From Aldrovandia affinis (Eukaryota > Chordata > Actinopteri > Notacanthiformes > Halosauridae): DNA of 64,000 bases. A model generated the notes under the pieces. That model was not told the origin of the DNA and did not search any database. It saw nothing but the letters and a program-made list of their open reading frames with translations. Below, in pieces: positions 18,638-45,100 of this stretch. The position numbers and the translations under genes are program-made. Each line of letters starts with the position of its first letter. Position 1 is the first letter of the stretch. The stretch lies in contig JAINUG010000150.1 in NCBI GenBank assembly GCA_029706075.1, positions 79,501-143,500 of the forward strand, read 5' to 3'.

Positions 18638-21600
18638 GTAAGTCATATTCATCCCCGTCTACCTCTTTCATGGAGCTCACATATATTCCAGTGTACACTC
18701 CAGCTTTACAGAAGCATTATTTCAACATATTTGGTTTATATCACAGGGCTTAAAACAATCGACATGAAATAGAATATATCATTCACATGAAGATTTATTG
18801 GGCAATTGACTATGTTTGTAGCTTATCTTTTTATACAGCATCATGTTCTGTGCGTGCTGTGTGTCGCTATACATTACAGGCATTTAGCAGACGCTCTTAT
18901 CCAGGGCAACTTACACAGTTTACATTTCTTTACATACAATCCATTTATACAGCTAGATATTTACTGAAACAATTCAGGTTAAGTACCTTTTTCAAGGGTA
19001 CAACGGCAGTGCCCCACATGGGAATCGAACCTGCAACATCTGTGTTATTGCCCCAGTTCCCTAACCATTATACTACACTGCTGCTTAATGAGATGCTTTC
19101 TAAACATTGTGTTTATGTTAATCGCACGCTCTCTCCCCTGCTGCATGGAATCCTCCTCAGGTCTTCCCACGGGGTCCACCATTGGTTATGCCAAGTCCCA
19201 CATCCGGGAGATCCTGAAGGGCGAATTCAACCGCTCCGTCGAGCTGCAGGTACGACAAGGGGTAGCCTAGTTATTTAGTCAGCAATCACCAAAATTGTTG
19301 AAAAAAATAAAACGCTAGCATTTCCTTGCCGTCGTTAAAAATAGGTGCCATCTCCAAAAAGACAACTTTTCAGGAAATGAGAAAAAAAATATATATATAT
19401 TAGTCACATGACACTTTCAATAAATTGTATTAGTCACAGAGTCATGTAATATTGACAGTACACAATGGCTGGCAAGCTTTCTATTCATGTATCAAACTCA
19501 AAAATTGAGATAAAATTAGATTAAAAAACGTTTACAAAAAATTTTTTTGTAGATGTTTATTACCTTACCTAAGGTTTGCTGCAGATTGCTTAGTTACTGC
19601 ATATAACCATGTAATCATTCAGATATACTAAGTTGGGCAAAAGCTAATCTTTCTCACAAATAGCCAGATCAAATTTGTTCCAAGTACCCAGTTTCTTCAT
19701 TGCTCAAAATTGAATTGAATTGATTTTCTGACGGACCTGATATTGAATAATACTGGGTTGCTTTCTTTGAGCCAGTTTACACCCCAAGATTACAGGATGT
19801 GTGTAGAGCTCGCAAATTTGCTCTCTGAAGGAGGGAAAAGAAAAGATAGCTATGCTGTTTCAAAGGCTAAGCGTACCTTACGTTCAACATACTCACTCTT
19901 GGCAAATGGACTATGTCCAGGGTCTTTGCAAACTTGAGCCTGGATGCCCATACATTTGCACTTCGGTTACAGCACGAAACAAAACGGGTTGGATGTGAGA
20001 TATCCAGTCATCACTGAGAGGAAAGAAAAGCCTTTAATGCGACCGCTAATTGCCCTGGAAACCTAAGATCGGATTGTGCAGTAGGTGTTTCTGGAAACAG
20101 ATCTTTTTTTTTCTTCTTTTTTTGTGGTCTCTGGGCAGAGCTGACGTAGGCTGATGGGTGTGATTACACTGTAGCGGACGTGTGTAGGTCTGGGTGAAGC
20201 AGAGGGACAGAGATGGATTGGGATGGCTGTCTCCCAGCCTGGTCAGCATTGACACAAGTGGTGCTTCATCATCCATCTCTTCAGATGAGGGATTCTCTTT
20301 TAACTCGGAGGAGAAATGGCACTCTTTTCTGTGTATTTCGATCTTTGTGACCGGCCTCTCAGACTGAAGGGGGGAGGGTGGGGGGCTGTTCTTTTATCAC
20401 CGTCATGGCGCATTTAGCGGTTACCTTTGAGTCATTTTTTCTGCTTATCGATTTAGTTGGAATCTATTTAGTTGACTGCTGAACTAAATTATTATTTTTT
20501 ATATATCTGTGGTAAGATTGAATGCTCCCTTCAATTCAAGCAGTGCTGTCGGGACTGAGGTAATTAATTTATTGGGATATACTTAAACACTTAACACTTA
20601 AAGGCACATTTTTGCTGTTCTGTTGTATGTTTTCATTTGTCCTTATTGTAGTACGAATGCTATGGAATATACATATTTGTATGCAGATATAATGATATTT
20701 AAGCTAAAATGAACACAAATACATTTTCTTCCCGTTCAGCTTACTGAAACTACAATCTCCCATAATGCATCACTTTCCCTCCAGCCTGCAAGAGTGCAAA
20801 AAACATGCATTGCAGTCTGGGAAAATGAGTCTATGAAGAATAATTGATTACTATCTGTCCTGTGTACTTGCATTTTGTGAGACCCTGCATTGCATTTAGG
20901 GTCTCTGAAATTGCTGCAGAGAAGGTAAAATTTGAATGCCTATTCAAATCTGCATATCTGTGTTGGTGTGAAACAGTTCTAGTTATGCAAAACCTTTTTA
21001 AATCGGAAACTAATACACGATATTGAGAAAAGATGGTGTATTAAAAAAAATGTCTTCTGCATATATACATTGTGGGCTGAGGGGAAAAACAGAAAATTGT
21101 CAACTTTGGTAAACTTACCCTTTAAAGCCACCGTTAAATTGTCTTCACTGCGCATAGCAATATAAAATGTTTCTGTTAGGGTACGGCGTCTCTCCTGAGT
21201 GGATAACGATGTTGTCACTCAATGTGATGACCTTGGTGAGGAGCCAGCGTTGTGTAATGGGGTGGTCTCTGCAGGTCTGGACCTTCTGTTGTCTCCCGCG
21301 GTGGCCGGCAGCCATGTTGATTTATGTGTTGAGCTGTGGTGCAGGCTTGCTGGCTCACAGCTCCTACACTGTGGGGAGTCTGGGAGTGACGGTCACTCAG
21401 GCCAGCATGCTGAAGTTTCCACTCAAATCAATGTGTTTTTTCAGGTTCAATTTATTGTTCTTTGGGAGAATTTAAACTTTTTTTTTTTTTTTTAATCCCA
21501 TTTTTCTCCCAATTTGGTAGCCAATTAGACCCGCTATTTCTATGTCAATCCCCCCTAGTCATGTGATTTCGCTGCCGTAGTCCTGCGACCGGTAGTGACG

Positions 21601-24600
21601 AAGGCGACCTGACGCCTCTTGTCGGCTTCCTTCCCCCCTCCCTGGGGTGGACAGCCAATCGCCGCCCCTGGTAGCGCTCCCGGCCAGAGCCGACTCTGGC
21701 GAGACGGGGAATTGAGCCCCGGCCTCCGTGGCCAGCGTCGAACGTTGTAAGGAGGCCGAATTTAAACTTATTTAGATTTGATCATAAATAGTTTAATTCA
21801 GTTGAAACTGTTTATCGTCAGTTGTGCAGCTTCCTCTGAGTTTATCAAACACCGCTTGACCCGGTGGCTTGTTACGCAAGGCTTTGGGCCAGGCTGTGCG
21901 GGACGGTTTACAGATGCACAAAGGACAGCCGTCTTCCATCTTCCTGTCTGCCGTTATCTCCGTCTGTCCTGTAGATAAATCAGAGCAGGAAGTCACTGTC
22001 ACCCTGCAGCCTGCACGGAAGCCATGACCTTTGACCCTTGTGCTGATTCCTTTGGTCCTTTCATCAGAATTCCTCTGATGGCAAAAGACAAGATGGCCAA
22101 CAAATTTGCCTGGGAGAGAAACATGCAGAGAGCGATAGAGAGAGAGTGTGTTTGTGGTGTGTGTGTGTCATTCTGTGATGTCATTTCCTTCCTTCCTCTG
22201 TGAAGATTCTGAAATCCCCGCCGGACTTCATCTTCCGCGTGGTGTCGGGGCCAGTGGTTTACACGGCGATCGCGGTCATCAACGCCCTTCGCCAGGCCAG
22301 CCGAAGTTCCTCTGTAATCCTGGCAGTACTGCCTGACGGCGCTGTGCCTGACTACAAATTCCAGGTTCACTCAGGTAGGTTCTCCCCAGTCAGTCGCTCT
22401 CCTCTCCGGGCTGCGTATTCCACGTCTCTGTACCTGACATGGGCGAACAGGACCATTAACTACTGTCATTTGGTACTGCGACCCTAGGGGTGAAGAAATA
22501 ACAGATTTGTCGCCGTCGTTAACTGGTATAGCAGCCATGTTGGGGTCATAACTTGTTATAGCTGCAGTGCTGTGGTCATAAGTTCTGGGATCATAAGCGG
22601 GCATAGCTGCAGGGGCGGGGGACAGTGCAGGGCATGGAAGGAGCAACTGTTTGTTGTGACAGTGTGTTGTGGACAGTGGTCCTCTGTAACATGTTTCTTT
22701 GTGTTTCCATCGCACAGTGCTGCAGTTTGTGCCCAGCCACGTGGACGTGCGCGTCTGCAATTTCAGCGAGCGCATGGAGAGAGGCCTGACCATGGCCTAC
22801 GCAGAAGTGCGCCGACGCTCCCACGAGTCCACCAACTTCACTGTGCGCGTAAGAGAGGGAGAGGGAGAGGGAGGGGCAGGCCCCAGAACGAGGAAAAGAG
22901 AGACGTCGTATGCAAATGTGCTCCATTCATTATCACTCAGAGCGGGAGGGTGGAGTGTATGAGGAGCAGAGGGAGGAGAGAAATGGAGGGAGGGAGTGAG
23001 GGAGTGAGGGAGGAGATTGATGGAAATAGAGAGGGAGAGTGTGAGTGAGAGAGAGAGCACAAAAGAGGAGCAGGAGAGAGAGAATGAGAGAAACACGTTC
23101 ATTGTTCACACTGAAGCATTTGCTGTTCCAGCCCTTTAGAGTTAAACAGCTGGATTTGTTTTATAAAAAAAAAAGAAACTTGCCTTGTTCATTTTAACGT
23201 TTTAATCCATCCAACGATGCCAAGATAGAATCAGAATATTGACTGGTTTATATTGTGGTTGAATGCAATTGTTTCTTTTCCCCCATTGCAATTTCCCCTG
23301 CCCAGTTGTGTCCTGGTTGCCACAGTACACATTCTGTTTCCTCCCAATTCTCCGAATGGCAAAGACAGCCGCTGGCGTTCAAATCTCAGCGCTCGTTTTG
23401 ATTGCATTTGGAGAAAGACTTGATCCTCTTAAAGGGGAAGTCTGGTCTAAAAAATGAAAATTTTTATGTGATAAGTACGTACATTTTGATGAAGGCTTCT
23501 GAAGTGCGTCCTGTAAGCCTAGAATCCAAAGCTACCTTTACGGCCGAAGACACAAGCGGTCAGGGTTTTTTACAGAAGAGAGAAAAACGAAATCCACTCA
23601 ATACAGCAAAACAGCGATGAATAAAACAGAACAAAACACAAGTAACTGTAAATTGTCCAATGAGACTAGCTATCATTACTTCTGTAGATACTTATGTGTA
23701 CATTTGTTGTCCGTACACTTTACTAAAAGAAGCTCTCAAGGCTGTCCAGTGGACACAAATAAAGGATGAAATGTTACTTTGGAGTGACTGGGAGTCTCTG
23801 GCCTCAGCAGCTGGTCTGACAGTCTCACTGAATACATTGAAGGCGCACAATAATGAATGATGTTTTCATGTGTTAGATTCTGTACTTGACGGTGCCGTAG
23901 GCATGACAGCCCGTCCTGTTCTGGTCTCCATCAGGGCTAAGCTCAATTCCATTTCAATTCAGTCCATTCACAAAATGAATTTTAATTGAATTCATGATCG
24001 AAAAAAATGCCCATAATATCCTATGATGATTTCTCAATGGATGAATCGGAATTTCAGTTTCATTTTCCTGAATTGGCCCCCAGCCCTGGTCTCCATTGCC
24101 TGTTCAGTGACCGATGGCAGGGTGTTTTTGTGTTGTAGATCGTGAACATCACTACAAACGCCCCCAAGACCCAGCGCCAGCAGAGGGCGCCGGTGGACGT
24201 CACCTTTGCCGTGCGCGATGCCGGCGGCTACCTGCGGGGGTCTGACGTCAGCAGCCATCTGAGGCTGCTAAACATGGTGGAGTTCAGTTTCTACCTGGGC
24301 TTCCCTGTACTGCAGATCGCAGAGCGTGAGTTAAACACATTTGCATTGGGGGGCAGATATATAAACCCACCCCCCCCCATTCAAATGTCCATTCAAACAT
24401 CCGTGCTCATTAGGTTTGATATTACATGTTAGGTTGTGTTTTCCTGCAGCGTTTCACTACCCAGAGCTGAATGTGTCCCAGCTGCTCCGGGACTCCTGGG
24501 TCAGGACAGGTAGGTAGATTCATACTATTCTGCTGGTACAGTATTTAGCTCTACCAGCCCCAGGTAGTGAAAGTACCTGTAAGGACAAGCCAGTGTAAGT

Positions 24601-27600
24601 GGGGACAGGAATGTTTATTGTTGTTGCTGACTGTGTTGTGTGTTCTATGACACTCTGGGCCAGATTTACTAAGATAGTAGCAGCGCAAAGACGGTCGCTA
24701 TTTTGTTGCGGCTATCTTGCGGTCGCAAATAGCGACTCATTAACAACCAATTTCCTAAGACTGGTTCTAATTAGGCAATCAAAGAAGGGAAACACCCTCA
24801 TTCGCAATTTGTGGTAGGATACACCCATAAAAAGGGTCTGAAGCAATATGGCACGCAGCAACCAGGCACAAGTAGCGAGGGAACAACAAGAAAAAGAAAA
24901 CTTACATTTATAGATCAGGAAATGGAGGTATTGGTCAACGAGGTACAGCATCACAATAGACTGCATTACAGCATAGGAAAACAACACCAATGGAGAAGAA
25001 AAAAGAAATGAATTCATTAGGCATAACAAAACGAACAGTAGATGTAAAGAACACAAACAACCGATGATGTAAAGAAAATATGACATGACGTCCAAAAGAA
25101 AACCTTTCCCACAACATAATGCGGGAAAAAGACACCGGCAGTGGTCCAACCGAGGAAAGAATATTAGAATAAGAATAAAGAATAGAAACGACTAAACTTG
25201 TGATGGCACAAGGCCACAGTGTCTTAAAGTAAAACTGTATTCACAATTCATTCTATACCCTCCTGTCCGCATAGGCACAATGAGATAATTGTTCAAATTC
25301 AGAACTGCGTTTATATACTGACTGCTAGCTGATGACAAATTGGTCAATAGAACTTCTGCATCCTTTCATATTATTTTTATTTCAAGTTCTAGTAAATAAT
25401 ATGTATGCTATATAGAATATATATTTTAAATTCTGACTTAGCTGTCTGTAGATACAGGTATTCCTGAAAATAAAACTCTTGTGACATGAATTGGGGTACT
25501 TTGCATCAACATGTATTGTGATTATTTGTTTTGCATCGCTAGGACAGCGACTAGCACCTCGGAAAGTGCAATCCAAAACGGGAATTGTGAAATACCTAGG
25601 TGATATCAGTGCTCATAAAATACCGCCTAGTTTCAAGGGACCTTAAAATTCTCACGCAAAGAGGACTGTCATAATTAAGGCCTGCTGTAGTAAATCAGCC
25701 AGGATACTTCATTGACCTAATTTACAAAATCTCCACCCTTTTATAGTGCATTCACCCCAGGTATAGATATGCATGAACAGATTTAACTGTTCATCTAAAG
25801 GAAAGTCATAAAGTGACTTAACCCCCGCAAATTACATCCTGATAGTGATTTTACCCCTTGCAACCGCTTAGTAAATACGACGTAGATATTGCAACCTTTT
25901 AGCGACTGCTTCTGTGTTCGAAAAGCAGTCGCAATCCTTTAGTAAATCTGTCCCTCTGTGTTGTGTGTTTTATGACTCTGTGTGTCGTGTGTTCTGTGAC
26001 TCTGTGCGCTGTGTTCTGTGACTCTGTGCGATGTGTTCTGTGACTCTGTGCTGTGTGTGTTCTGTGACTGTGCTGTGTTCTGTGACTGTGCTGTGTTCTG
26101 TGACTCTGTGCGATGTGTTCTGTGACTCTGTGTGCTGTGTTCTGTGACTGTGCTGTGTTCTGTGACTGTGCTGTGTTCTGTGACTGTGCTGTGTTCTGTG
26201 ACTGTGCGATGTGTTCTGTGACTCTGTGCTGTGTTCTGTGACTGTGCTGTGTTCTGTGACTCTCTGCGCTGTGTTCTGTGACTGTGCTGTGTTCTGTGAC
26301 TCTCTGCGCTGTGTTCTGTGACTGTGCTGTGTTCTGTGACTCTCTGTGCTGTGTTCTGTGACTCTGTGTGTGACTCTGCTGTGTTCTGTGACTGTGCTGT
26401 GTTCTGTGACTCTGTGCGCTGTGTTCCGTGACTGTGTGCTGTGTTCTGTGACTCTGTGTGCTGTGTTCTGTGACTCTCTGCGCTGTGTTCTGTGACTGTG
26501 CTGTGTTCCGTGACTCTGCTGTGTTCTGTGACTCTGTGCGCTGTGTTCTGTGACTCTGTGCGATGTGTTCTGTGACTCTCTGTGCTGTGTGCTGCAGTGT
26601 TGCTGGGTGTGCTGGACCAGCGGGTGAACGAGCGCACCTTCCAGGCTAAGATGGAGCGCCGTCTGGCCCTGCTGCTGGGGGAGGTTCTAGGGTCGGCACG
26701 GCGCTGGAGGAGGGCCACCAGTGTGGGCAACAACAGTGTGCAGGTACAGAGCCACACCTTTACCACACACACACCAGTGTGCAGGTACAGAGCCACACAG
26801 ACACCAGTGTGCAGGTACAGAGCCACACCTTTACTACACACACACCAGTGTGCAGGTACAGAGCCACACCTTTACCACACAGACACCAGTGTGCAGGTAC
26901 AGAGCCACACCATTACCACACAGACACCAGTGTGCAGGTACAGAGCCACACCTTTACCACACAGACACCAGTGTGCAGGTACAGAGCCACACCGTTACCA
27001 CACACACACCAGTGTGCAGGTACAGATCTACACCATTACCACACAGACACCAGTGTGCAGGTACAGAGCCACACCTTTACCACACACACACCAGTGTGCA
27101 GGTACAGATCTACACCATTACCACATAGACACCAGTGTGCAGGTACAGAGCCACACCTTTACCACACACACACCAGTGTGCAGGCACAGAGCCACACCTT
27201 TACCACACAGACACCAGTGTGCAGGTACAGAGCCACACACCACACAGACACCAGTGTGCAGGTACAGAGCTACACACCTGTGCAGGTACAGAGCCACACC
27301 TTTACCACACACACACCAGTGTGCAGGCACAGAGCCACACCTTTACCACACAGACACCAGTGTGCAGGTACAGAGCCACACCTTTACCACACACACACCA
27401 GTGTGCAGGTACAGAGCTACACCGTTACCACACAGACACCAGTGTGCAGGTACAGAGCCACACCTTTACCACACAGACACCAGTGTGCAGGTACAGAGCC
27501 ACACCAGTGTGCACATGAGCGAGGCAGTCCCACTTCTTAGAGGAAATTTGTTTGTTGATTTTCTTTTTGCTACACTGGAAGTCAAACTCACAAAGTCTGG

Positions 27601-29119
27601 GTCATAAGGTGTTGTTAGACTTTGTGGCTGGCAGTTCAGTGAAGGAAACTGTAACTCACTTAGACTTACAGCACTAACTCTAAACCAATGTCACAAAATT
27701 TGTATTTATACAGGATGTGTCCACAGAACATAATAGTTGGAAACAGTTTTTTGATTCGCAGCATTAATATTAACTTGAAAATGAAAGTATGTCTTGCCAA
27801 ACCTACCAAAAACACCAAATGGGGCAAAACTGCCACCTGGGCAGTCTGAAAGTGTATCCGGAAGGGTGTGTCGGGGTGTGTCAAGCAAAAGGAAGAAGCC
27901 ATAGAAAGAGGAGCACAAGGGCTAGTAGTAGTAGACGCATGTAATGCCGTTGTTGTGGTGGCATCATCGGTAGTTGTAGAAATGATGGTTGGTCGGTTCG
28001 GAACCCGACTGTGTCAGATCGACCCTGGCCATTAGTCTGGGGCGGTGTTTGGCTGTCTGCCCCAAGGGGAAGGGGGGAGTGTGAGCCAGCTTGAGTTCGC
28101 TGCGAAGTGCGTAAGGGTGTCTCCAGAAAGTGGATGGGTGAATTCCGTCTCGAAGGAAGCAGAGTTCGCTGCACTCTGAGAATTAGCTTGCTCGTAGAGA
28201 AGACGAGTGGCGGACTTGTGTGGGGAGGGCAAATCGAAATAAATAGAGGCTGTAATTGGCCACTAAATTGGGAGAAAACTGGAAAAAATTTGAAAAAAAA
28301 AAAAAGAAAGAAATGATAGTTGGTTGTTTTACTGGCGCTAGTTGAGTTGTGGCATCCATAGCTGCAGTAGAACGGAGAGTAGCCTGTGTGTCAGTGTAGC
28401 AGGCAGTGGCTCTATTGTTCGCAGGTTTAATCAGCTTGGAGGCCAGTGACAGGGCCTCTTTGTGCTCCGCATTAGCTTTCCAGGAAAGACGGGGATCGGA
28501 GCGCTGAGAGTCATCGCAGGCGCGGGCCGCCTTCACATCCTGCCGCCTCGTTGGCTCGCTAAGCCGGCGCTCCCTCCGTGGCTTCCTACCGCACCTGCTC
28601 TCTCCCGACATCGTCCAAGGACAGGAGAGGGTAGCCATGGCAACGCGGCCCGTGCAGCCCCGTGCAAGCCATTCTAAAGCCCAATCCCCCAATTCCCCCC
28701 AAATCGCACAACAGGCCTAATAGCAGATCAATTATTAAAAGCTATTCACTGGCAGCCAAAGTCATTATGGAATAAACACTGTGTGCGGACAGATGGATTT
28801 TCATCGGAGCAGGTCCACAGCCGACAGTGGGAGCTGTCACTCAGACTGCGCTTGAGCTTTCCCCCTCTCCCCCTGGGCACGCGGTCCGCAGGCTCACCAC
28901 GCACAAAAGCATCACTGTGCCTGGGGACCACCGTCTTCCAGGGGACGAGCCTTGAGATCACGCACTTAGGCGAAGAACGGGGCCGGTCCTTAGAGCTCTG
29001 CAGTGCTGAAGCACTTCTCTCTCAGACAAGGCACTTATATGTGGTGAAAAGCAGAGTCTTTCAGAGGTTCTGCCTTTTTATTTCTCGCCTTGCTTTGAGA
29101 GAGAGGTGGGGGCGAGAAA

Positions 29120-29158
<39 letters not shown>

Positions 29159-29398
29159 GGATTCTACTGTCAGTGGTGGACAGAGCTGGTGATTGGCTGA
29201 GTGGAGCGCATGTGACCTGTGCAGTCCTATGGGCTGTTAAAGTACAGCGTCTGACGGGGAAGAATATGGGAGCAGTTCAGGTGGGCTCATCTGCTGGCCA
29301 AAAGCTGCTACTGCACAGAGCTGCTCTCAGCCTACAGAGGTCACCGTGCACAGAGCTGCTCTCAGCCTACAGAGGTCACCGTGCACACTGTGTGTGTG

Positions 29399-29432
<34 letters not shown>

Positions 29433-30961
29433 AGTATCTAAGTTGTGTGTGTGAGAGTATGTGAGTGTGTATGTAAGGGGTGTGTGTGTGTATATAAGTC
29501 TGTAGGTTGTGTGTGTGAGAGCCTGTGTGTATAAGTACAGTCAGGTCCATAAGTATTTGGACAGTGACACAATGTTCATCATTTTGCCTCTGTACGCCTG
29601 CACAATGGATTTTAAATGAAACAATCAAGATGTGCTTTAAGTGTAGACTTTCAGCTTTAATTTAAAGTTTTTTCAAAAATAGGAATTACAACCATTTTTA
29701 TCCATAGCCCCCCCAATTTTAGGGTCTCAAAAGTAATTGGACAAACTAACATAATCATAAATTAAATTGTAATGTTTAACACTGCCTGAAGTCTGGAACC
29801 CATAGACATCACCAGATGCTGGGTTTCTTCCCTGGTGATGCTCTGCCAGACCTTTACTGCCGCTGTCTTCAGTTCCTGCTTGTTCTTGGGCCGTTCAGCA
29901 AGTGAATTGCATGCTCAATTGGATTCAGGTCAGGTGATTGACTTGGCCATTGCAGAACATTCAACTTCTTTGCCTTAAAAAAAGTATTGGGTTGCTTTCT
30001 TAGTATGCTTTGGGTCATTGTCCATCTGCACTGTGAAGTGCTGTCCAATGAGTTTTTAAGCATTTGGCTGAATCTGAGCAGATAATATAGCCCTATACAC
30101 TTCAGAATTCATCCTGCTGCTTTTGTCAGCAGTCACATCATCAGTAAATACAAGGGAACCAGTTCCATTGGCAGCCATACATGCTTCACAGATGAGGTGG
30201 TATGCTTCGGATCATGAGCAGTTCCTTCCCTTCTCCATACTCTTCTCTTCCCATCATTCTGGTATAAGTTGATCTTTGTCTCATCTGTCCATAGGATGTT
30301 GTTCCAGAACTGTACAGGCTTTTTTATATGTTTTTTGGCAAACTCTAACCTGGTCTTCCTGTTTTTGAGGCTTACCAATGGTTTACATCTTGCGGTAAAC
30401 CCTCTGTACTTACTCTGGTGAAGTCTTCTCTTGATTGTTGACTTTGACACAGATACGCCTACCTCCTGGAGGGTGTTCTTGGTCTGGCCAACTCTTGACT
30501 GGCAGTGACAGCTCTTTGGACTTCATATTGAGAGTTAACAGCAACAGATTCCAAATGTAAATGCCACACTTGAAATCAACTCTATTCAACTCTAGACCTT
30601 TTATCTGCTTACTTGTAAATTAAACAATGAGGGAATAACACACACCTGGCCATGGAACAGCTGAGCAGCCAAATGTCCAATTACTTTTGGTCCCTTAAAA
30701 AGGGGGGAACCACATATAAAAAGTGTTGTAATTCCTACACCGTTCACCCGATTTGGATGTAAATGCCCTTAAATTAAAGCTGAAAGTGCACTTTGAGCTC
30801 ATATTCATTATTTAATTTCACTTCCAATATGATGTGGTAGACAGCTAAAATAACAATAGCTTTGTCAATGTCCAAATATTTATGGACCTGACTGTAAGTA
30901 AGTTGCATGTGTGAGTGTGTTTGTGTGTGTGTGTAAGTGTGTGTGTGAGTGTGTGTGTGTT

Positions 30962-31029
<68 letters not shown>

Positions 31030-34000
31030 TGTGCAAGTGTGTAAGTTGTGTGTGTGAGTGTGTGTGTAAGTGTGTAAGTTGTGTGTGTGAGTGTGTATGA
31101 GGCCATGTCTCAGTGTTGTCTCTGGTGCTCAGATGGTGCGCACCTCGCGGCTGGAGGGGGCCGACCACCCTCTGGAGATGGTGTACTTTGTGGAGGGGCC
31201 CAGCGGGGACAGGGTGGCGGCCATCACCACCTCCAGCCTGCTCAACCGCCTGGACGTGCAGAGAGCCGCCATTGTCTTAGGATACCGCGTGCAGGGCACA
31301 CTCGCCCAGCGTGAGTACCCCCCATAACCGCACATCGACACGGGAACACCACGACAACCTGCACACCAGCACCCTGACAGCCCCCTACAGCCATTTCCCA
31401 ACACAGGATGGGCCCGCATTGTTATGACACCGCAACATCTTGCAGTAAAATTTTACAGCAGCTTTTTTTAACATTGATTGCTTTCCCACACAGTGCTCAA
31501 AACCTCCTTATTATGTATCCCAATTCCAGAGTAAAGAGCCCTGAGGAGGTAGGCCTTAGGGGGCCGGGGGGGGCAGTGAAATGATTTTACAGCATGTGAC
31601 AGTCCCCCAAACACAGAATGAGCTTAATTAAGGCCACACTTCCCCTGTTGAGAGGGCAGGGTGGAAGGGCTCATTGTTAGATGAGGTGGGGGTTTGGTGT
31701 CAGTGCCAGTGTTAAGAGAGGGCGTGGTCTCTCACCCTTGCAGCTGTGGAGAAGCTGGCGGCTCCCCCCTCGGAGACGCAGAGCAACAACATGTGGATCA
31801 TCGTGGGCGTGGTCATCCCCGTGCTGGTGGTGGTCATCATCATCATCATCCTGTACTGGAAGCTCTGCCGCACCGACAAGCTGGAGTTTCAGCCCGACGC
31901 CATGGCCACCGTCCAGCAGAGGCAGAAGGTGAGGGGGGGGTAAGAGGGATAGGGATGGGGAGGTTAGGCATGGGGATGCAGTCCCTCCTGTGCTCATTAT
32001 CTTTGTGCAGGTGTATCACTGTATCCGTTCTTTGAGTGAATGAGCACACAGCGTAGACTCTCACCAGCCAATGGGCTCCTCTGCTTCTCTCACACACCAG
32101 CTCTCCGTAGGTACGTGCAGGGGCGACGGGGTGTGGGTAGGCGTGTGTGTGAGAGCGCGGGGCATCCCGCTGACAGCGTGCTGGTCATGGCGTCCCCCCC
32201 TGTGGCCCTGATCCGGCCTCACACTGGAGAGGATCACACCTGTGACAGCAGCAGTGCTGTGAGGCCCCCTGACCCCCACAGTGTGCCTGCATAATGCACA
32301 CTCTCTCCTCGCAGAATATCACACGCTGATCCTGGCCTATCTCCAGGCCTTCTGAGTGTGCCTGCCTCCCCTCCCTTTGGGGCAGACACCCCCTCCCCTC
32401 CCTTTGGGGCAGACACCCCCTCCCTCCCTTTGGGGCAGACACCACCTCCCCATTTGGGGCAGACACCCCCCTCAGACACCCCCCCTTTGGGGCAGACACC
32501 CCCTCCTCTCCCTTTGGGGCAGACACCCCCTCTCCCCCTCCCTTTGGGGCAGACACCCCCCTCCCTTTAGGGCAGACACCCCCTTCTCTCCCTTTGGGGC
32601 AGACACCCCCTTTATCTCCCTTTTGGGGCAGACACCACCTTCTCCTTTGGGGCTCCCTTTGGGGGCAGACACCCCCTCCCCTCCCTTTGGGGCTGACACC
32701 CCTCCTCTCCCCTTTGGGGCAGACACCCCCCTCCCTCCACCCCCCCTTTGGGGCAGACACCCCCTCCCTCCCTTTGGGGCAGACACCCCCTCCCCTCCCT
32801 TGGGGCAGATACCACCTTCTCTCCCTTTGGGGCAGACACCCCCTTCTCTCCCTTTGGGGCAGACACCCCCTCCTCTCCCTTTGGGGCAGACTCTCCCTTT
32901 GGGGCAGACACCCCCTCCCCTCCCTTTGGGGCAGACACCCCCTTGGGGCAGACACCCCCTCCCCTCCCTTTGGGGCAGACACCCCCTTCTCTCCCTTTGG
33001 GGCAGACACCCCCTCCTCTCCCTTTGGGGCAGACACCCCCTCCCCTCCCTTTGGGGCAGACACCTCCCCTTTGGGGCAGACTCCTCCCACCCCCTTTGGG
33101 GCAGACACCCCCTCCCCTCCCTTTGGGGCAGACACCCCCCCTTTGGGGCAGACACCCCCTCCCCTCCCTTTGGGGCAGACACCCCCTCCCCTCCCTTTGG
33201 GGCAGACACCCCCTCCTCTCCCTTTGGGGCAGACACCCCCTCCTCTCCCTTCGGGGCAGACACCCCCTTCTCTCCCTTCGGGGCAGACATCATTACTCTG
33301 TTTTTGTTGCTCCCTCCCTGATCCCTGCATCTTGAATCCTCGAATGAACACATCTCAAACCCCCATGCACCCCCATTCAGTCCAGCATGACCCTCCTGGA
33401 GTCACTGCCTCCTGCTCTGGGCAGCAAGAGCCCCGAACAGCTGAAGGAGGAGGGAGAGGAAGAGGAGGGAGGGGAAGAGGAGGAGGAGGAGGAGGAAGAG
33501 GTGTTGGAGGTACAGCGTAGAGTAGATGACCCCAGGACTCTCGTTCAGCCAGCACATACCGCCGTGTGAACGTTTAGATGGAGGATCCTCTCTAGACGAT
33601 GTAGTCTGTAGCTTGTGCTCAGAGATTCTGATTTCAGGATTAATCGCATTAAAACTGCACTAGGGAAGGCAGACATCTGCATTTCTAAATCCATATTTGG
33701 TTATGATTTTCATTCATTGTGTTTCTGCAGAAAATCCTTGCCAGCTTAGCATGCATAAACAATTCCAACTGCAATTGTGCCCAATTGTAAATTATAAATT
33801 GTACATTTAAATGTGACTAGTTTGCAGAATGTAAATGAGTAAAAATGCATGTATTGGGGCGCACCAGTACAAACACAGTGTGTTCCTGCACCCAGGTCCG
33901 CCTCCGAAAGACAATGTAAAGCCTGAAATCAGAATGTGGAGAAAATGTCTTTAGCTGTGCTCAGATGGTTGAGTGTGGATAGAAGTGCGCTCAGATGTGA

Positions 34001-35292
34001 GACCCTCTCCCTCGGCCGGCGTGGGGGAGCCGTGTGTCTCTGCCCCGTCCCGCTTCATGCACAGTCCCCTCAGTGCCTTTCACTTTACAGTTTACCTTCT
34101 GGTTATTCAGCAGACGCTTTTATCCAAAGCAGCTCACAAGAGTGTGTTCGTATGGTTAGAGATCACCAGCAAGTCACAGTCTGATCGTTGACGTCGCCCA
34201 CGTTCGTGCCACAAAACCTGTCGTACAAAGGGAAGAGAAAGGTTATATAACTTTTGTTATTATGAATCGAGGTGACGTCTGAAAAGGTGACTTGTCAGGC
34301 TTTTTCGGAAGATGGCTCAAGATTCTGCCGTCCTGGCCGACTGGGGAAGGTCGTTCCACCGTCTCGGGACGAGGGCAGAGGAGAGGCGGGGCCGTGAGGA
34401 GCGACCGGGTGTTTTCGGACGGTGAGCCCTCTCAGCACGGGCCAGAGAGGAGGAGGTGCAGACGGGACAACAGTGTGGGCAGAGCGCCCCTGGAGCCTCA
34501 CTGGGATAACTGCCATTTCCCCAAATAAACCTCTCTCAGCACCATACGGCTGAGTTTCCACTCACACTAGCGAACGGGAAGGAGCAGAACTCACGGTGAG
34601 GCCGCGTGATCTCCAGGGAGAGGCTCGGTGATCTTCCGTGTGCCTGGATTACTCCCTCAGAATCTCCTCAACAAAGGGCCCAGAATATCTGATTTTCGGT
34701 CCCCTAATCCTCAGTCCTACAGTGCGCAACACCTGCGGCACATTAGGCACTGGCCCTGTCAATCATGCTAATGAATCAAATTAAGCAGGTAATGTGATGG
34801 TTTGTTCCTTTCATACAGCTCATTGCAGCCCAAAGTGCTTCACAAAAAACATTCAACAATAATAATAATAAAATGTGTGGAATGTAGTTATTATTAAATA
34901 ATTAATCACACTGCATTTCCCCATGCCCCTTTGCCTCTCCTCCCCCCTCCTCTCTCTTCTCCCATACGCCACTGCTCCTCTCTCCTCTTTCCTCCCTTCT
35001 TTCCTCCTTCCTTCCTCTCTCCTCTGTCCCCTCCTCTCTCATCCCCTCCTCTCTCTCCCCTCCTCTCTTCCCCCTCCTCTCCCCTCCCATCCTCCCCTCT
35101 CTCTCTCTCTCTCTCCCCCCCTCCTCTCCCCTCCTCTCCACCCCTCTCTCTCTCCCTCTCTCTCTCTCTCTCTCCCTCTCTCTCTCCCTCTCCCTCTCTC
35201 TCTCTCTCTCCCTCCCCTCCTCTCTCTCTCTCTCTCTCCCTCCTCCTCTCTCTCTCCTCTCTCTCTCTCTCCCTCCCTCTCTCTCTCTCTCT

Positions 35293-35332
<40 letters not shown>

Positions 35333-36835
35333 CTCTCTCCTCTCTCTCTCTCTCTCTCTCTCCCCTCCTCTCTCTCTCTCCCCTCCTCTCCTCTCTCTCC
35401 TCCCCTCCTCCCCCTCTCTCTCTCTCTCTCTCTCTCTCCCCTCTCTCCCCTCCCTCTCTCTCTCTCTCTCCTCCCCCTCCCCAGCTCCAGGCTCCCAGCG
35501 TAAAAGGCTTTGACTTTGCGAAGCTGCACCTGGGGCAGCACAGTAAGGATGACATCATGGTGATCCAGGAGCCCGGCCCTCTCCCGGTGCCTGTCAAAGA
35601 GGTGACCCCGTCGGAGAACGGGGACGTGCCCACCCCCAAATCCAAGACCTCCTCCACCAAGGCGTCCCGGGCCGCCCGTCGCAGAGGGAGGTCAGTCACC
35701 CCAAACGTTCTCACAGGTGGAAGCAGCTTTTCAAATCTGACGCTGGCACAAAGCCTCGTACAGCATATTCAAACCAGTACATCAGACACCAGACCACCGT
35801 TACAGATAGATGAACCCGTTCCGTGGTTTTTGCCCATATTACTATTAGAGCTTGAGATCGGTAAAGCTGCAGTCCACTTATTGCCATCGTCCAAATTCAT
35901 GCTGCACGGTTAGCTATTTCTCTTTTTTTTTTTTATAATGATTATATTTCAGTGAGGTGTAGTCCGAAAAGGTGAGTTTTCCTGGCCCAGTGTGTGCATT
36001 TGGAGAGAAATATGGAGCTGGACTTTTGAAAACGTGTCACAGCTCACTATGGCAACGGCGTTACTGAAGACTTCTACTGTATCACCCACTGCACTGGGCC
36101 TGTTCTCATTGGGTTGGCATTAAATCTGCGTGCAGGCCTTTAAACGCGGACCTGGGGTGGGGCGCGGTGTGCGTTCGATCAGCCCGCTCCCTCACCGTTA
36201 GCCCTGTGCGTGGCTCCCTGGCACGTTTGATTAATCATTGATTCTCTGGAACTCCATTATAAAGCTACAATAAAAAAAAGCCTGACTCAGTGTGTAAAGC
36301 TACTGTAAACTCTCTGGGACTGGAAGTTCATTAGACAGACCCCCCTCGCACCGTCGCCACCGCTCCCCCTCCTCCACCGCTAAGTTAAATCATGTTCCTC
36401 AACGCGTAATAACGATCATCAAGTTTGTTAGACTTGTGAGGCCTGGGACGCTGTGATTGGCTGGCTGCTGAGAGGCGCGGGGGGGCGACCCCTCCCCCCT
36501 GGTCGTGCTTTGCCCCAGGCGGAGAGAAAGATGAATTATGAAGCTGGAATATCAATAACCAGTCAGTGTGAGCCGGCTGAGCTGACTCCTGCCAGATCTT
36601 TATTGCATCGCTGGCCAGTTCATTAAGGGGCTGATGTGCGATGGAATTAATAGTATTTATTCGATCATATTTCTGAGCTATTAAACAGGCATATGTGCTG
36701 ACTTAGTACAATGAACCAGGAACTATAGATAGTGATTTAATTCCTCTCTTTTCTTTGCACCTTTTTCCAGTAAACCTTACTGGGCAGTTAAATGTATATA
36801 ATCCTGTCCTGTGTAATTGGGTGGGTGATGCATCT

Positions 36836-36868
<33 letters not shown>

Positions 36869-39800
36869 TCACTGAGCTGTGAAAATGAATATCATCGTGT
36901 GAGGACAATAAATGAAATCTGAAATCTATTTCAAAGTTAGCAGAGCCCCTGACTAAACGCTCGATACACACAGTAGAGCCTCTGAGGCATGAACACATCG
37001 GGAAAGGAGGTCGTTCGGAGATTTGAAAGGTTTGTATCTTTGAAAGTGAAGTCAAAATACAATACAAAATGTCAAAAACCTTTATTGATTGTAATCGTAG
37101 CTTGCATTCCTGTTGCCTTATGTTTTAAATAGGCTGCTCCCATTTTGTGGTTAATAACCACAGCAGCTGTAATCAGTAATATCATTACTTTTAGTTGTTG
37201 GCTTTCTGAACGTTACATCACCTCTTTATTGAGTTGCTATCTTTGGCTTCGCTTCTTTTGTAAACTGTTTAATTTTGTTCTGCCTCTTCTTTACACCAAA
37301 CACTGTAGATCCACTGTAGATCAAACGTTCTTCTGTGTTCTTTATCAATACTGCTGACACTTTTCATTTTGCCCTTTTCTCTCATTTTGCTATTTTTATT
37401 TTATTTTTTTCAACGGAAAGCCTGATTCTTTTCAGTTTAATGCTTGCCTTTGTGCACCAGGGCTTGATAATTGCGTATGCTTCTTCCGGTTCCGTACCAC
37501 GTTGTGTTGAGTTGGGTCAGTCTGTATCTCTGAGGTCCTGCTGTTTTATGCACATTTATGTAGTGTTGTTCTGGCCACTGGGAGCCCTGTGATGTGTGCA
37601 CTGGGCCTGTTCCCTGGGTAATGCTGTCGCTCTGTGATTGGTCAGGATATCCCCTTCGGATGCAGACTCTGTGGGCAGCGACCCGTCCAGCGGGAGGGAG
37701 TCGACTGAGGAGAACCTGAGACCCCCCGTCACGCCTGGTGACGGGAAGCAGCCCCGCAAAACAACCAAAAATGGCAAGCACGTCGCCCGTGACTACACTG
37801 CGCCCAGAACCACACCTTAAACCTGAGAGAGGGAGCCTACAACCACACCTTAAACTGCACCCAGAACCACACCTTAAACCTGAGAGAGGGAGCCTACAAC
37901 CACACCTTAAACCACACCCAGAACCACACTTTAAACCTGAGAGAGGGAGCCTACAACCACACCTTAAACCGCACCCAGAACCACACCTTAAACCTGAGAG
38001 AGGGAGCCTACAACACCTTAAACCACACCTTAAAACCCAGAACACACCTTAAACCTGAGAGAGGGAGCTACAGAACCACACCTTAAACCTGAGAGAGGGA
38101 GCCTACATCCACACCTTAAACCGCCTACAACAGAACCACACTTTAAACTTTTAAACCTGAGAGAGGGAGCCTACATCCACACCTTAAACCGCACACAGAA
38201 CCACACTTTTAAACCTGAGAGAGGGAGCCTACATCCACACCTTAAACCGCACACAGAACCACACTTTAAACCTGAGAGAGGGAGCCTACATCCACACCTT
38301 AAACCGCACACAGAACCACACTTTAAACCTGAGAGAGGGAGCCTACAACCACACCTTAAACCGCACACAGAACCACACTTTTAAACCTGAGAGAGGGAGC
38401 CTACAACACAGAACCACACTTTAAACCTGAGAGAGGGAGCCTACATCCACACTGCACACAAAACCACACATAACACCACACCCGTAACTACAACCAAAAC
38501 CATGCTCAAATCCACACAGAGAGCAGAGCGAGAGACAGAGAGATACAAACATTGAAAAATACAGACAATGTACAGTAGATAGAATATAGAGTGGCAGAGA
38601 AACCGAGAGAGAAAGACAAGAGAGGTTTTTAATGGTATAACAGTGGCATCCCAAGCGCAGCAACAGTGTAAGGTCTATTGGGCCAGAGTGTCTGAGCTGT
38701 GCCCAGCCGGGCCGACTCAGCATTGAGGAATGGGATGGGCCTGACCCCACGGCACGCTGGAGCGCCGCCCCATTCAGCCGCCTCTATTTAACACCCGGTC
38801 CGCAGGCCAGATCAGCCCACGCAGGAGCCGGGGGAGCGAGTCTTATCAGCCCTGGAATTCCTGTTTCCCGTCTGTCACTGTCCTCTGCCTCCTCCCACAA
38901 TTCACTGTTTGTCTTCTACTTTCAACAAGCAAGAGTCTGGCGCTCGCTCAAAAGCAGCTGCCAGAGCAGAGCTCACTGAAACGGAGACACGCGGCTGATT
39001 GCAGCGCGCGGTGAAAAGCCTCTCAGTTTGAGCTTTGGGTCGATTCGGACAGAACCCTGTCAGTACCTAAAGGGTTGATTGAATGGTGTGTTGGATTTGT
39101 CTTGAACAATAGCTTGCGTGGTCAGAACACGTGACGTTCCTGGATGGAATCCACACAGAATTCTTTGTCTTTTTTCCCCAACGTTGAAAGCGTTTTCTTC
39201 TGTCTGCTTGACTTTTTCTCCCTCTGTCTTCTTTCATTGTGGCCTTCAGGGAAGAATAAAATTGGTAAGAGTTATTTTGTTTTTGTCATCATTTTAAAAC
39301 TGCTATGCGCTATGTAAACATTCTAAATCTTTTGTCAGTCTGCCCCTTCTGTAGAGTGTAGCTGTTCCTCTAGTTTACTTTTGATTAATACTGAGTAGGA
39401 ACAGTCTGGATTCAGTCACCATTTGTCCTTAATTTTGAATTTTGCAAGCAATTGTTTCCTTCTCAGACATAGTTTGGCGAGTACCACCAAAAATATAACC
39501 AAATTAATTCACCAAACAGGAAAAAAGTAGCACATGAATTAATTAAATAAAAAGTTAATCAAAATTAAACCCAGGCCCTCGTCTTGCTAAAATGTGCAGA
39601 ATGCCACTGCTCAACTTTGCCACCTGGTGGTCAGGAGGTGGTAAGACAGGTGCCAAGGACATTTGGTGAATGACTGTGTCCAAACAGCCTCTCGGGCAGC
39701 ATGTGTTCACGTCTGAACACATTTTAGCTGCACGCTTTTTTGGTGTTGCTGTAGGTAGAGTTCATCTGCGCGCGATCCATTCAGAAATGCCCGTCGTTAG

Positions 39801-42137
39801 TCATTCATACTCGCTGAGTCACTGCTGCACCTGAGGCTCAGAATGAGCTGAGATGAAGTCAAGGACCCAGAAATGTGCCAACCCCCTCTCTCCCCATGCT
39901 GTGCCCCCAGGCCCCCCACCGGTGAACGGGGGGGACGAGCAGCTCTCCTCCGCCTCCATCTTTGAGCACGTGGACAGGATGTCGCGCTCCTCGGACGGGA
40001 CGCGCCGCGTGGCCAATAAGATCCAGCTCATCGCCATGCAGCCCATGCCGGCCCCGCCCCAGCACAGCCCCGCCGTCACAGAGAGGGTGTCCGAGAGCGC
40101 CAAGATCAACAAGGAGGTGAGGGCCCTCGCACCCCCCAGGCCCCTGTGCCCCCCCCCCCTGAGACTGAACCCCCTCCCCTCACCCCTATCCTTCAGTTCT
40201 GCTCACTAAAGATGTTATTTTGAATTCCATCGAGTGGAATCCCAGGAATCGTTGTGGGAAACAGCCGTAAAGGGTGTCCGGTATAATGTCTCCTTAAATC
40301 CTCCCCGTTCTCCCTTTGTGCGTCTCTGGCTTTGGCGGACTGACTGACCCTCAAGCCCCTCCCACTCCCTCCCAAGCCCTCCCACAATCCCCCTCCCAAG
40401 CCTTCCCACAACCCCCCTTTCCTCTTTCAAGCCCCTCCCACTCCCTCCCAGAGAGCTGGTTCACCTCCTAACAACAGTGAATAATAAGCAAAAGGTCTTC
40501 GACCCTCCCCCTCACGGGTTCCGGACTAAAACAACTAACCAAAGTAACAAACTAAATCAAAGAATTGCCGTTTCGGCAAAACACGACAACCCGTTACATG
40601 TTACACTTTTCAGTCGGTTTTCAGCAGAGCAGTTTTAAGCACACGGGTACGATTAGATAATTCTGCACAGCTGTGTGCCCTAGCTGCCCAGCCGGTAGGT
40701 GTGGCCGTTAATCACCCCGATTCCCCCGCGCCTAGGCCGACGCCTTCCACACCCCCCCTTGCTCCTCTCGCCCCTTCCACTCCCCAGCCCTGCCGCTGTT
40801 TGTCTTATTGCAGTAATGTGTGTCTGCCCAAGATCCAGGTGGCCCTGAGGCACAAGTCTGAGATCGAGCACCACCGCAACAAGATCCGCCTGAGGGCCAA
40901 GAGGCGGGGCCACTACGACTTCCCCGCCATGGACGACATCATGGACAGCTTCGGCGACCTGAAGGACCAGGACCACATCTACCAGAAAGCGCAGATGCAG
41001 ATCGACAAGATCCTGGACCCAGAGGCCCACGTGCCCTCCATTTTCATGGACCCCAAGAAGAGGTCAGGGGTCGTGCTTTCACCAGCGTCCTTTAACGCAC
41101 CGTGGCGTGGCCTACAAGTTCTGTCCGATGTTCTGTTTCCTTCTACACTTTGCAAATGCATACTCTTTGCCGCCCTGTTTTGAAATCATCCAATTATTCC
41201 TGTTTAACATTTAAGGAGGGCTTCCATTAGAATAAATAGTAGTAGTAGTAGTAGTAAATGGTAGTCTCTCAGGGTGCGTGCGTTCTCTCCCAATTTGACT
41301 ATTTACCCAATGCTTAATGACTCTTAATGTCAGTTTGTCTTCCTTTAAAAGGGTTCTAGGAGTCTGAGTTTGCTCTAGATTCAGTTCTGAGCCGTGAGGC
41401 GCGATCTCCCTCTGCTTCACAAGTTATAGTAGTTTGACAGAAATATTGTCCACTGATTTTTACACACTGTTTTCATGGGACCTTCACGTCAGTATGTGGT
41501 ACTGCAAACGATAAAGCCAAGGCAGCTCCAATGTTCAGGCGAGAGAGACGTGGTGACAGTGTCACTCTTACAGTCAGAATACGGGACAGTGTTGTGATGT
41601 GTGGTTTGATACGGGTTCCCCCAGCGCCAGGGGGAAGCGCTCCCCCAAGCAGAGGAAGAAGCCGCAGGTGAACGGCAGGATGGTGGACGATAAGGACAGA
41701 CTCATCACCACCGACAGCGACGGCACATACAGGAAGTACCCCGGAGTCAACAACGTGGCCTATGTGGTGAGCGGAGCTGTTCGCTGTGTCACTGTCACAC
41801 ACACGCCCCCGTGCACACATATACACACACACACATATACACACACATACACACATGCACACATACACCCACATACACACACGCCCCGTGCACACATATA
41901 CACACACATACACACACACACACCCCCATGTACACATATGCACACCACATATACACACACATACACACCCACATACACACACACGCCCATGCACACACCA
42001 CACATACACACACACACACCCATGCACACATATAAACACACACACATGCCCACACACACACGCCCATGCACACATATACACCCACATACACACACACGCC
42101 CATGCACACATATACACACACATACACCCATGCACAC

Positions 42138-42176
<39 letters not shown>

Positions 42177-45100
42177 CATATCTACACCCACACACATGCA
42201 CAAATATATACACACACACATGCACATGCACATGCACACACACATTTACAGCCCAGGGCGCAGATGGAGAACAGTATGAAATGTGTAACGGTCTCCTCCT
42301 GTGTCTCACAGTCGGACCCTGACCAGCTCCCCGACGCCCGTAGCCCCTCCCCGAACGACGACGTGTTCCTGGGCCCCGGCTCGCCCCCTCCGGGCCCCGC
42401 CCCGGGCCGGCCCCCCTACGTGCCCCCCCAGCCCTCCATCGAGGAGGCCCGGCAGCAGATGCATTCCCTGCTGGACGACGCCTTCGCCCTGGTGTCCCCC
42501 TCCTCGCAGGGCAGCACCCCTGGCATCGCTCTCCCGGGCAACAGCCCCCGCCCCGCACCCCCCGCGGCCCGCCCCCCGGCCAGTGGGGCTCCGCCCACCC
42601 CTCTGCCCCCGCCCTCAGCCCCTTCTCAGCGGTGAGTGTGATGGAACATGCACCCACACTGAGGGGTGCGCTCTGGGCTTGGACCATAAGCGGGTGTTCA
42701 TGTCCTGACTGCTCTGACTGTGTCAGTATGTGTAATCACTAGTCTAACTGTCAGTGTGTGCACTGACTCATCTAGTTGTGTCAGTGTATGTACTGACTGA
42801 TCTGAGCAGGTCAGTGTATGTACTGACTGATCTAGATGTGTCAGTGTATGTATACACTCATTGGTCTGACGGTATCAATGTATGTTCTGACTGCTCTGAT
42901 TGAGTGTCAGTATGTACTGACTGCTCTGACTGTAGAATATGTGTTCTGACTGCTCTGATTGTGTCAGTATGTACTGACTGCTCTGACTGTAGAATATGTG
43001 TTCTGACTGCTCTGATTGTGTCAGTATGTACTGACTGCTCTGACTGTAGAATATGTGTTCTGACTGCTCTGATTGTGTCAGTATGTACTGACTGCTCTGA
43101 CTGTAGAATATGTGTTCTGACTGCTCTGATTGTGTCAGTATGTACTGACTGCTCTGACTGTAGAATGTACTGTATGTTCTGGCTGCTCTGACTGTGTCAG
43201 TGATGTACTGGGTGAAGGGCTGGTTTGTGCATGTTTTAGATAGAGATCAGTATAGCCCATACAGGGTTAATATGAGCATTGCAAGTGCAAGTGAGTGTGC
43301 AGTTAAATTGGTTCACCGATTATTGCCAGCATTTTAATGCAGGTCTGCTGCATTGAAACCAGCTGAACTCAGCTCAGAATCAGATCACATAAATCCACCA
43401 ATGTGGCCTTCTGCTATTCCTCCCCACCCCCTCACCCCTGACCTCCAGCAGATTAGTGTGTGTAGCTCACATCTCCTGGTGTCAAATCCTCTTTGGCTGT
43501 TTTTCACAAGCTGTTTAGTAGTGAGCTTATCTGCTGTCCAGTGCCTCGTGGCAGAATGTACAGCACTTTCATACTGCTCTCATGTGTCTGTTTGTAAAAG
43601 GCCTTTGGCTCAGTGTTTGGGTGCCATTTGACACAGGAGATAGCATTGTGCTAACAAGAGGGGAAGATAATGATATTCCTGTTTTTTGGGCTGACAGTTC
43701 AGTTCAGTTCAGTATCTCACTGATATTTTGTGCTAACTGTTCAGAGTACACCTTGTACAAAACACACTAGGGGTTACAGACCAATCATAGAGCAGGATTT
43801 CTAAGCAGCTAATCTGTTGTCCACCCCTTCATATAGTGCCTGCGGCCTCTGTGACGTTTCTGTGTTGCTTGCGGGTCCGCTCACGCGCTCTCTCTGTCTC
43901 TGTGTCTGTTTCTCCAGAGATACGCAGAGTTGGGAATGTCCCCGCCCTCAGTTCAAAGCTTATTACAAAGGTAAGCACTTTTACCAGGTATTTTACACAT
44001 CATTTTGTGTTGCGGTTAAGGTCTTCTTTTTCCTTTTGTTTTTGTTTTGCATATTTACAATGATCCAATCTGGAGGCTACCATCACTGACATTAGACAAA
44101 ATAAATATATATAAATATACTTTATATGTATAGATTTTTTTAATTGGACATTCTTATTTAATAACAGGACAGTGATGGCAGCCTCCATATACACTACCAG
44201 TCAAAAGTTTTAGAACACCCCCATTTTCCAGTCAAATTTAAGCAGTTTTAGAACACCCCCATTTTCCTGTGTGTTATTTAAAAAAAAAAGTTTTCATTGT
44301 GTTAACGGTCAGTGATGGTCAGTGCTGTGTTTGACAGTGTGTCACACACTGTGCCTGTGATTTAGATTTTGTGTTTGATAGGCAGGGCCTGCCATCTTAG
44401 CAATGGCTTTCTTACTGCCACTCGACCTGTCAAACCTGTATCCTCCTCCAGTTGAAACTGGACTTCCTTACTTCGACCAGTGTTAAGCTGTGCTTGGACC
44501 AGCTGCAGCCTGAGGCCTGCTCTTCCTGTCAGAGTTTCCTCCAGTTCCCAAGTGCCTTTTGCGCCAAAAATTGTACATTATTTTTCAGTTTTTGGTAACC
44601 TAAACTTTTTTTTTTTTACCTCTGACAGTTTATGTACCATTTCAGGTTATTCCTGGAGGCCCCGGAAAATGGGGGGTTCTAAAATGTTTGACCCGTATAT
44701 TATTATTATTTTGTAATTACTTCTGTATTGGTTTTGTTCAGTCCTCTGTAATTCCAGATCAGCGATGTGGTCAGTGCTGTGTGTGTATTGCAGGTCAGTG
44801 ATGGTCAGTGCTGTGTGTGTGTGTTTTGTGTTTGATAGGCAGGGCCTGCCCTGCCCGTGTGGACCAGCTGCAGCCTGAGGCCCTGTACTGACACCCTGCC
44901 AGGCCCCGGCCCGTACGCCGTCCTCCGCCCAGCATCCTGCCAGCCGGCTCTGCAGGGCTTCAGTTCTCAGGCCTGCGGGTTGTTCCCTGGGGGACTTACA
45001 CAGGTTGACTTCATGGGAAAGAGCCAGAGAGATGGGGCGAGAGAATGCACTTGCATTTGCATTTGCATTTTAGGCATTTAGCAGACGCTCTTATCCAGAG

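Follow-up and report, generated by a model that had tools for sequence, protein, structure and literature searches.

The end of a KIAA1549-family coding exon and its splice donor have been copied by a 41-bp minisatellite, and the intron that follows opens with a row of 20 tandem copies of the exon's own donor motif. The array occupies positions 26734 to about 27513 (plus strand) of the window, i.e. the whole 64-kb stretch of Aldrovandia affinis DNA analysed here, as delimited by TRF (calls at 26730-27275 and 27272-27505) and by motif counts. We consider it likely that a duplication straddling the exon-intron junction grew to these 20 units, that the array is close to neutral, and that the first donor takes most or all of the splicing. 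In addition, donor-anchored minisatellites are recurrent in this genome.

The copied junction and the origin of the array

The gene lies on the plus strand of contig C558 of a 1.22-Gb genome, which holds three loci of the family, including paralogs on contigs C779 and C2244. Its consecutive exons match PF12877, the Pfam profile that spans the whole KIAA1549 family, and are thereby assigned to it. Family matches, splice signals and the reading frame were used to map 14 acceptors and 14 donors, and joining 12 consecutive exons, from 22718 to 42631, gives one open frame; an upstream exon at 19161-19249, whose position is unsure, gives no family-like frame when joined. The exon at the array (26598-26743, plus strand) is 146 nt long, ends on a codon boundary and lies in an open reading frame that matches PF12877 (E=4.9e-18). 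Its last base is 26743, and the intron begins at 26744 with the first copy of GTACAG (26744-26749, plus strand), recognised as the authentic donor from the sequence and from the same exon end in the two paralogs. The next exon (31133-31310, plus strand; PF12877, E=9.2e-23) has the acceptor CAG^ATG, where ^ marks the junction, and is in frame, with 26743 joining 31133 in phase 0; the two exons joined together match the family at E=3.5e-46.

The last 10 nt of the upstream exon, CAGTGTGCAG, are part of the repeat unit, and the first of the 20 copies of the array motif, TGTGCAG^G(T/C)ACAG, is the end and donor of the exon itself. A direct count over the 64-kb window reproduced exactly the figures of the initial annotation, 18 plus-strand copies of CAGGTACAG and two of CAGGCACAG, every one of them inside the array; the minus strand has a single CAGGTACAG, at 22436. 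Because 64 kb contain no other plus-strand copy of the 9-mer, the array is far beyond chance. The "about 20 equivalent donors" of that annotation are 18 GT donors with identical 9-mers, shared by 17 of the 19 downstream copies, for which the description stands, and two GC donors, for which it does not. Unit spacing is 41 nt in 16 of the 19 intervals, with 30, 37 and 24 nt occurring once each. Among the 41-nt units mean identity is 95% and 7 of 41 columns are variable, 2 of 19 in the junction core versus 5 of 22 in the rest (Fisher one-sided p=0.27), which gives no evidence of selection on the core. The two GC donors lie 143 nt apart and TRF reports a higher-order period of 143 bp; thus, a single GC change was probably copied through block duplication. 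A search for relatives of the unit elsewhere returned weak matches only.

The same intron also contains a Tc1/Tc3-like transposase fragment (30136-30522, minus strand; PF01498, 3.1e-16). Other elements in the window are an endonuclease domain of a retroelement (PF03372; 54818-55180, minus strand), a weak hAT dimerisation match just under the cut-off (PF05699; 58209-58736, minus strand) and, at the 3' end, a protein kinase fragment (PF00069, 6.9e-27; 63258-63629, plus strand).

On C779 and C2244 the homologous exon ends at the same place (...TVQ^GTAGGA), and there is no tandem repeat at the junction. Because both paralogs end the exon there without an array, the donor predates the array, the exon end is its source, and the array arose in this gene copy. 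The comparison supports the initial annotation, which was right that a 41-bp minisatellite had copied the exon end and donor. The route that we infer is a tandem duplication straddling the junction, which would have copied the last 10 exon nt, the donor and about 31 nt of the intron; slippage and unequal exchange could then have expanded the array to 20 units. Since the array terminates in a partial unit, GTACAGAGCCACACCAGTGTGCA, the first duplication may have started from a 9-nt direct repeat, CAGTGTGCA. The array would be close to neutral because every extra donor sits downstream of the real one.

Arrays at splice sites in the gene and in the genome

Arrays cluster around the splice sites of this gene. 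In a proximity test that was devised post hoc (an earlier version used 22 sites), with array bounds merged by hand from TRF and one CA array counted for two sites, 8 of 28 splice sites lie within 75 nt of an array of at least 150 bp, compared with 1.01 on average over 10,000 random placements; the count of 8 was reached by none of them. At thresholds of 20, 50 and 120 nt, respectively 8, 0 and 0 of the 10,000 placements were as extreme, and seven of the eight long arrays in the gene span are near splice sites. On the acceptor side, a 22/40-bp array (25947-26594, plus strand) lies 4 nt before exon 26598; its sense strand has no AG (648 nt) and carries TGTGAC 28 times, and the array may force the branch point to lie a long way upstream. 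Of the AG-free runs on the sense strand, the longest two (653 and 595 nt) stop precisely at the acceptors of exons 26598 and 35485, and the third longest, of 473 nt, stops 62 nt before the acceptor at 42312; contrary to this pattern, the TG array ahead of 31133 contains 10 AGs. A CT array (34934-35473) lies directly before the acceptor at 35485 and a CA array (41814-42244) fills most of the intron 41766-42312, both with a sense strand lacking AG. On the donor side, the contrasting case is a 57-bp array (37797-38517, plus strand) 9 nt after the donor of exon 37646-37788, with one GT in 721 nt; among the four donor-side long arrays, matches to GTAAG, GTGAG or AGGT number 17 in the array at 26743 versus 0, 0 and 1 in the others. 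A 27/54-bp array of CCTCCCTTTGGGGCAGACACC (32365-33289) lies 437 nt past a donor, inside a 940-nt GT-free run.

Donor-anchored arrays are not confined to this gene copy. The paralog on C2244 has a 47-bp array (8789282-8790397; L035 2990-4019) that starts at the end of a different exon (PF12877 positions 566-611, E=7.7e-7) and repeats TATGA(T/C)^GT(G/A)AGT 21 times, the first copy being the exon's own donor. Each 47-bp unit there also carries CCCCACAG, and the units therefore look like an acceptor, about 10 nt and a donor. The 5' edge was examined in 18 further donor-motif arrays from pattern searches of the genome, namely the 10 distinct CAGGTRAG arrays that head the list, five picked non-randomly from nine others, and the first three CAGGTACAG arrays in list order. 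Five of the 18 (3 of 13 taken in list order, 2 of 5 picked) adjoin an exon with a protein match: peptidase M41 (1.2e-25), astrotactin (1.8e-25), a DNase I-like domain matched in the PDB and without a Pfam match (3.7e-18), an EGF/teneurin-like exon (3.1e-14) and a PAS exon just under the Pfam cut-off (1.1e-5), where the array proper starts about 86 nt after the donor, beyond a copy of the exon tail. On contig C113, a sixth array closes an open frame that looks like a coiled coil and has no accepted family match. At the other 12 of the 18 no recognisable exon was found, a count in which exons without a known domain would be missed.

Searching the whole genome for three copies of a motif spaced 24-54 nt apart gave 4263 places for CAGGTRAG, against 295 for the reversed control, 26 for GATGCRAG and 675 for CTGGARAG. 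GATGCRAG is a poor control, with one single copy in about 119 kb, and CTGGARAG a good one, with 9, equal to the 9 of CAGGTRAG. With each array counted once, on the contigs of the listing as far as C136, the excess is about twofold (19 for CAGGTRAG versus 9 for CTGGARAG). We do not claim a donor hot spot, because real donors among the seeds could yield a twofold excess, and neutral seeding suffices to explain the recurrence. A broader proposal, which we offer tentatively, is that in this genome exon-intron junctions are a recurrent birthplace of minisatellites, with donor arrays at the exon ends of many genes, acceptor-side arrays kept free of AG, and a standing, length-variable layer of decoy splice signals formed by both; if it is true, position-based donor choice becomes testable over many natural arrays.

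Donor choice

The frame that continues from the exon is open across the array up to its first stop at 27605, and to this extent the initial annotation, which had all forward frames open, was correct; one of the other forward frames is closed within the array by a TAG at 27126-27128. The rule in that annotation of a restored frame at every third unit breaks down over the 30-, 37- and 24-nt units: only 5 of the 19 downstream donors are in frame (+153, +276, +399, +624 and +747 nt), 8 lead to a stop in the next exon, and 6 traverse that exon out of frame without a stop. Among the 11 of 14 mapped donors scored with a human frequency table, the array donor is the lowest (4.6, the next being 4.67); its U1 duplex energy of -7.2 (-14.0 for the consensus) falls within the -4.6 to -11.0 of the other donors, so that on this measure others are weaker. 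Sites with at least the frequency-table score of the array donor are not rare, with 18 in the array, another 32 in the remainder of its intron and a density of 5.3 per kb elsewhere in the window; the array therefore packs weak donors densely, not strong ones.

Two findings from human genes bear on which donor is used. In intron 7 of the factor VII gene (F7), 37-bp repeats include the donor in the first unit, and only that first donor is normally used (PMC6627357); weakening of that donor leads to exon skipping or to splicing from sites further downstream (PMC6627357, citing Borensztajn 2006). More generally, passages of PMC8964760 describe negligible depletion of intronic decoy donors, except for the most competitive, those of about equal strength, and decoys of equal strength are depleted within 150 nt. 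The F7 precedent and the negligible depletion of decoys lead us to expect that 26743 dominates, with donors 2-20 mostly silent and some leakage. As the upstream donor and the sole giver of an exon of normal length, it would take most or all of the splicing, and low-level use of the downstream donors would be expected because the motif CAG^GTACAG is weak. Against this expectation, the array copies are identical to a low-scoring real donor and so belong to the very class of decoy that is depleted in human genes.

It is unlikely, though worth weighing, that donors 2-20 are often used, producing a ladder of extended exons, of which five would keep the frame, in a mix that would shift with copy-number alleles. 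At its longest the exon would grow from 146 to 893 nt, a lengthening that is unfavourable for exon definition; moreover, 14 of the 19 downstream donors would shift the frame, and F7 speaks for the first donor. The crowding of 18 identical donors into 750 nt, the open continuing frame and the in-frame donors within it nevertheless suit such a ladder, and the polyubiquitin gene UBC is described as making one from an AGGT array (PMC10809524).

The unit could also be read as a dual-specific site, donor and acceptor in one, with the array removed stepwise or by recursive splicing. CAG^GT is present in every GT unit, and such sites are reported to be enriched in tandem repeats (PMC10809524), but the copies would make poor acceptors: at the 9 of 20 junctions measured, the pyrimidine fraction is 0.35-0.50 with one or two AGs in the 20 nt upstream, whereas ten real acceptors have 0.60-1.00 and at most one AG over the same distance. 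The unit length is not a multiple of three either, and we regard this reading as very improbable. Nor do we give much credence to a platform role, in which U1 sites and CA-rich stretches binding hnRNP L would strengthen the first donor or guard the intron from early polyadenylation. CACA does occur 68 times in 772 nt (88 per kb, against 5.5 per kb over the remainder of the intron), and hnRNP L is known to bind CA elements close to splice sites (PMC3940906), but the paralogs splice the homologous exon without an array and the CA richness may be mere unit composition.

Pairing between the two arrays flanking the exon was considered as an explanation and rejected, as composition accounts for most of the predicted pairing. 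In the predicted sense RNA (25947-26597 plus 26744-27515), 486 inter-array pairs would bury the donors (mean unpaired 0.01-0.31). Shuffles of both arrays with dinucleotides kept (n=30) gave a mean energy of -651.9 versus -627.0 observed, and 370-457 inter-array pairs (at most 470 in all 60 shuffles).

Finally, tandem arrays are hard to assemble and the copy number could be wrong, but an assembly artefact is scarcely credible given that the units carry private variants and indels and that exon-anchored arrays also occur in a paralog and in several unrelated genes.

Comparison with known arrays at exon ends

Minisatellites that carry a donor at an exon end are already known, and this array is a well-formed case of the kind. 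As in F7 intron 7, where the number of repeats varies (PMC6627357), the unit at the exon-intron border, the first of the array, contains the authentic donor and downstream units carry near-identical donors; the array differs in having 20 copies of a 41-bp unit, in another gene of another vertebrate. Internal tandem repeats at exon-intron boundaries are also described in genes of human segmental duplications, where they are said to create alternative splicing (PMC2812944). These share the position of the minisatellite, but according to the passages cited they gave rise to new introns in human paralogs of recent origin, with 27 intron modifications, whereas the old intron boundaries are kept here. 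The UBC array shares an AGGT core in regular tandem, with CAGGT in 18 of 20 copies here, but its units, as described in PMC10809524, are coding and 228 nt long, a multiple of three with coding boundaries, whereas those of our array are mostly intronic, 41 nt in 16 of 19 cases, and would probably make poor acceptors. Among fish, the GH genes of Sparus aurata have polymorphic intronic minisatellites with length alleles, and donor copying is not stated in the cited passages (PMC3045353). In a literature drawn mostly from open papers, we came across no account of donor-anchored minisatellites forming a recurrent class in a fish genome, which is weak evidence of absence.

Arrays of this kind show a straightforward way for minisatellites to fill introns with decoy splice signals, and they are a potential source of length polymorphism that can be scored directly by long-read RNA. 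In particular, identical neighbouring donors allow exon-definition models to be tested cleanly against the rule that the first donor wins. Two things go beyond the F7 precedent: within one genome such arrays recur in genes that are unrelated, and in this gene arrays crowd the splice sites. F7 is one natural case, whereas this genome gives several, in unrelated genes and with different unit lengths and copy numbers.
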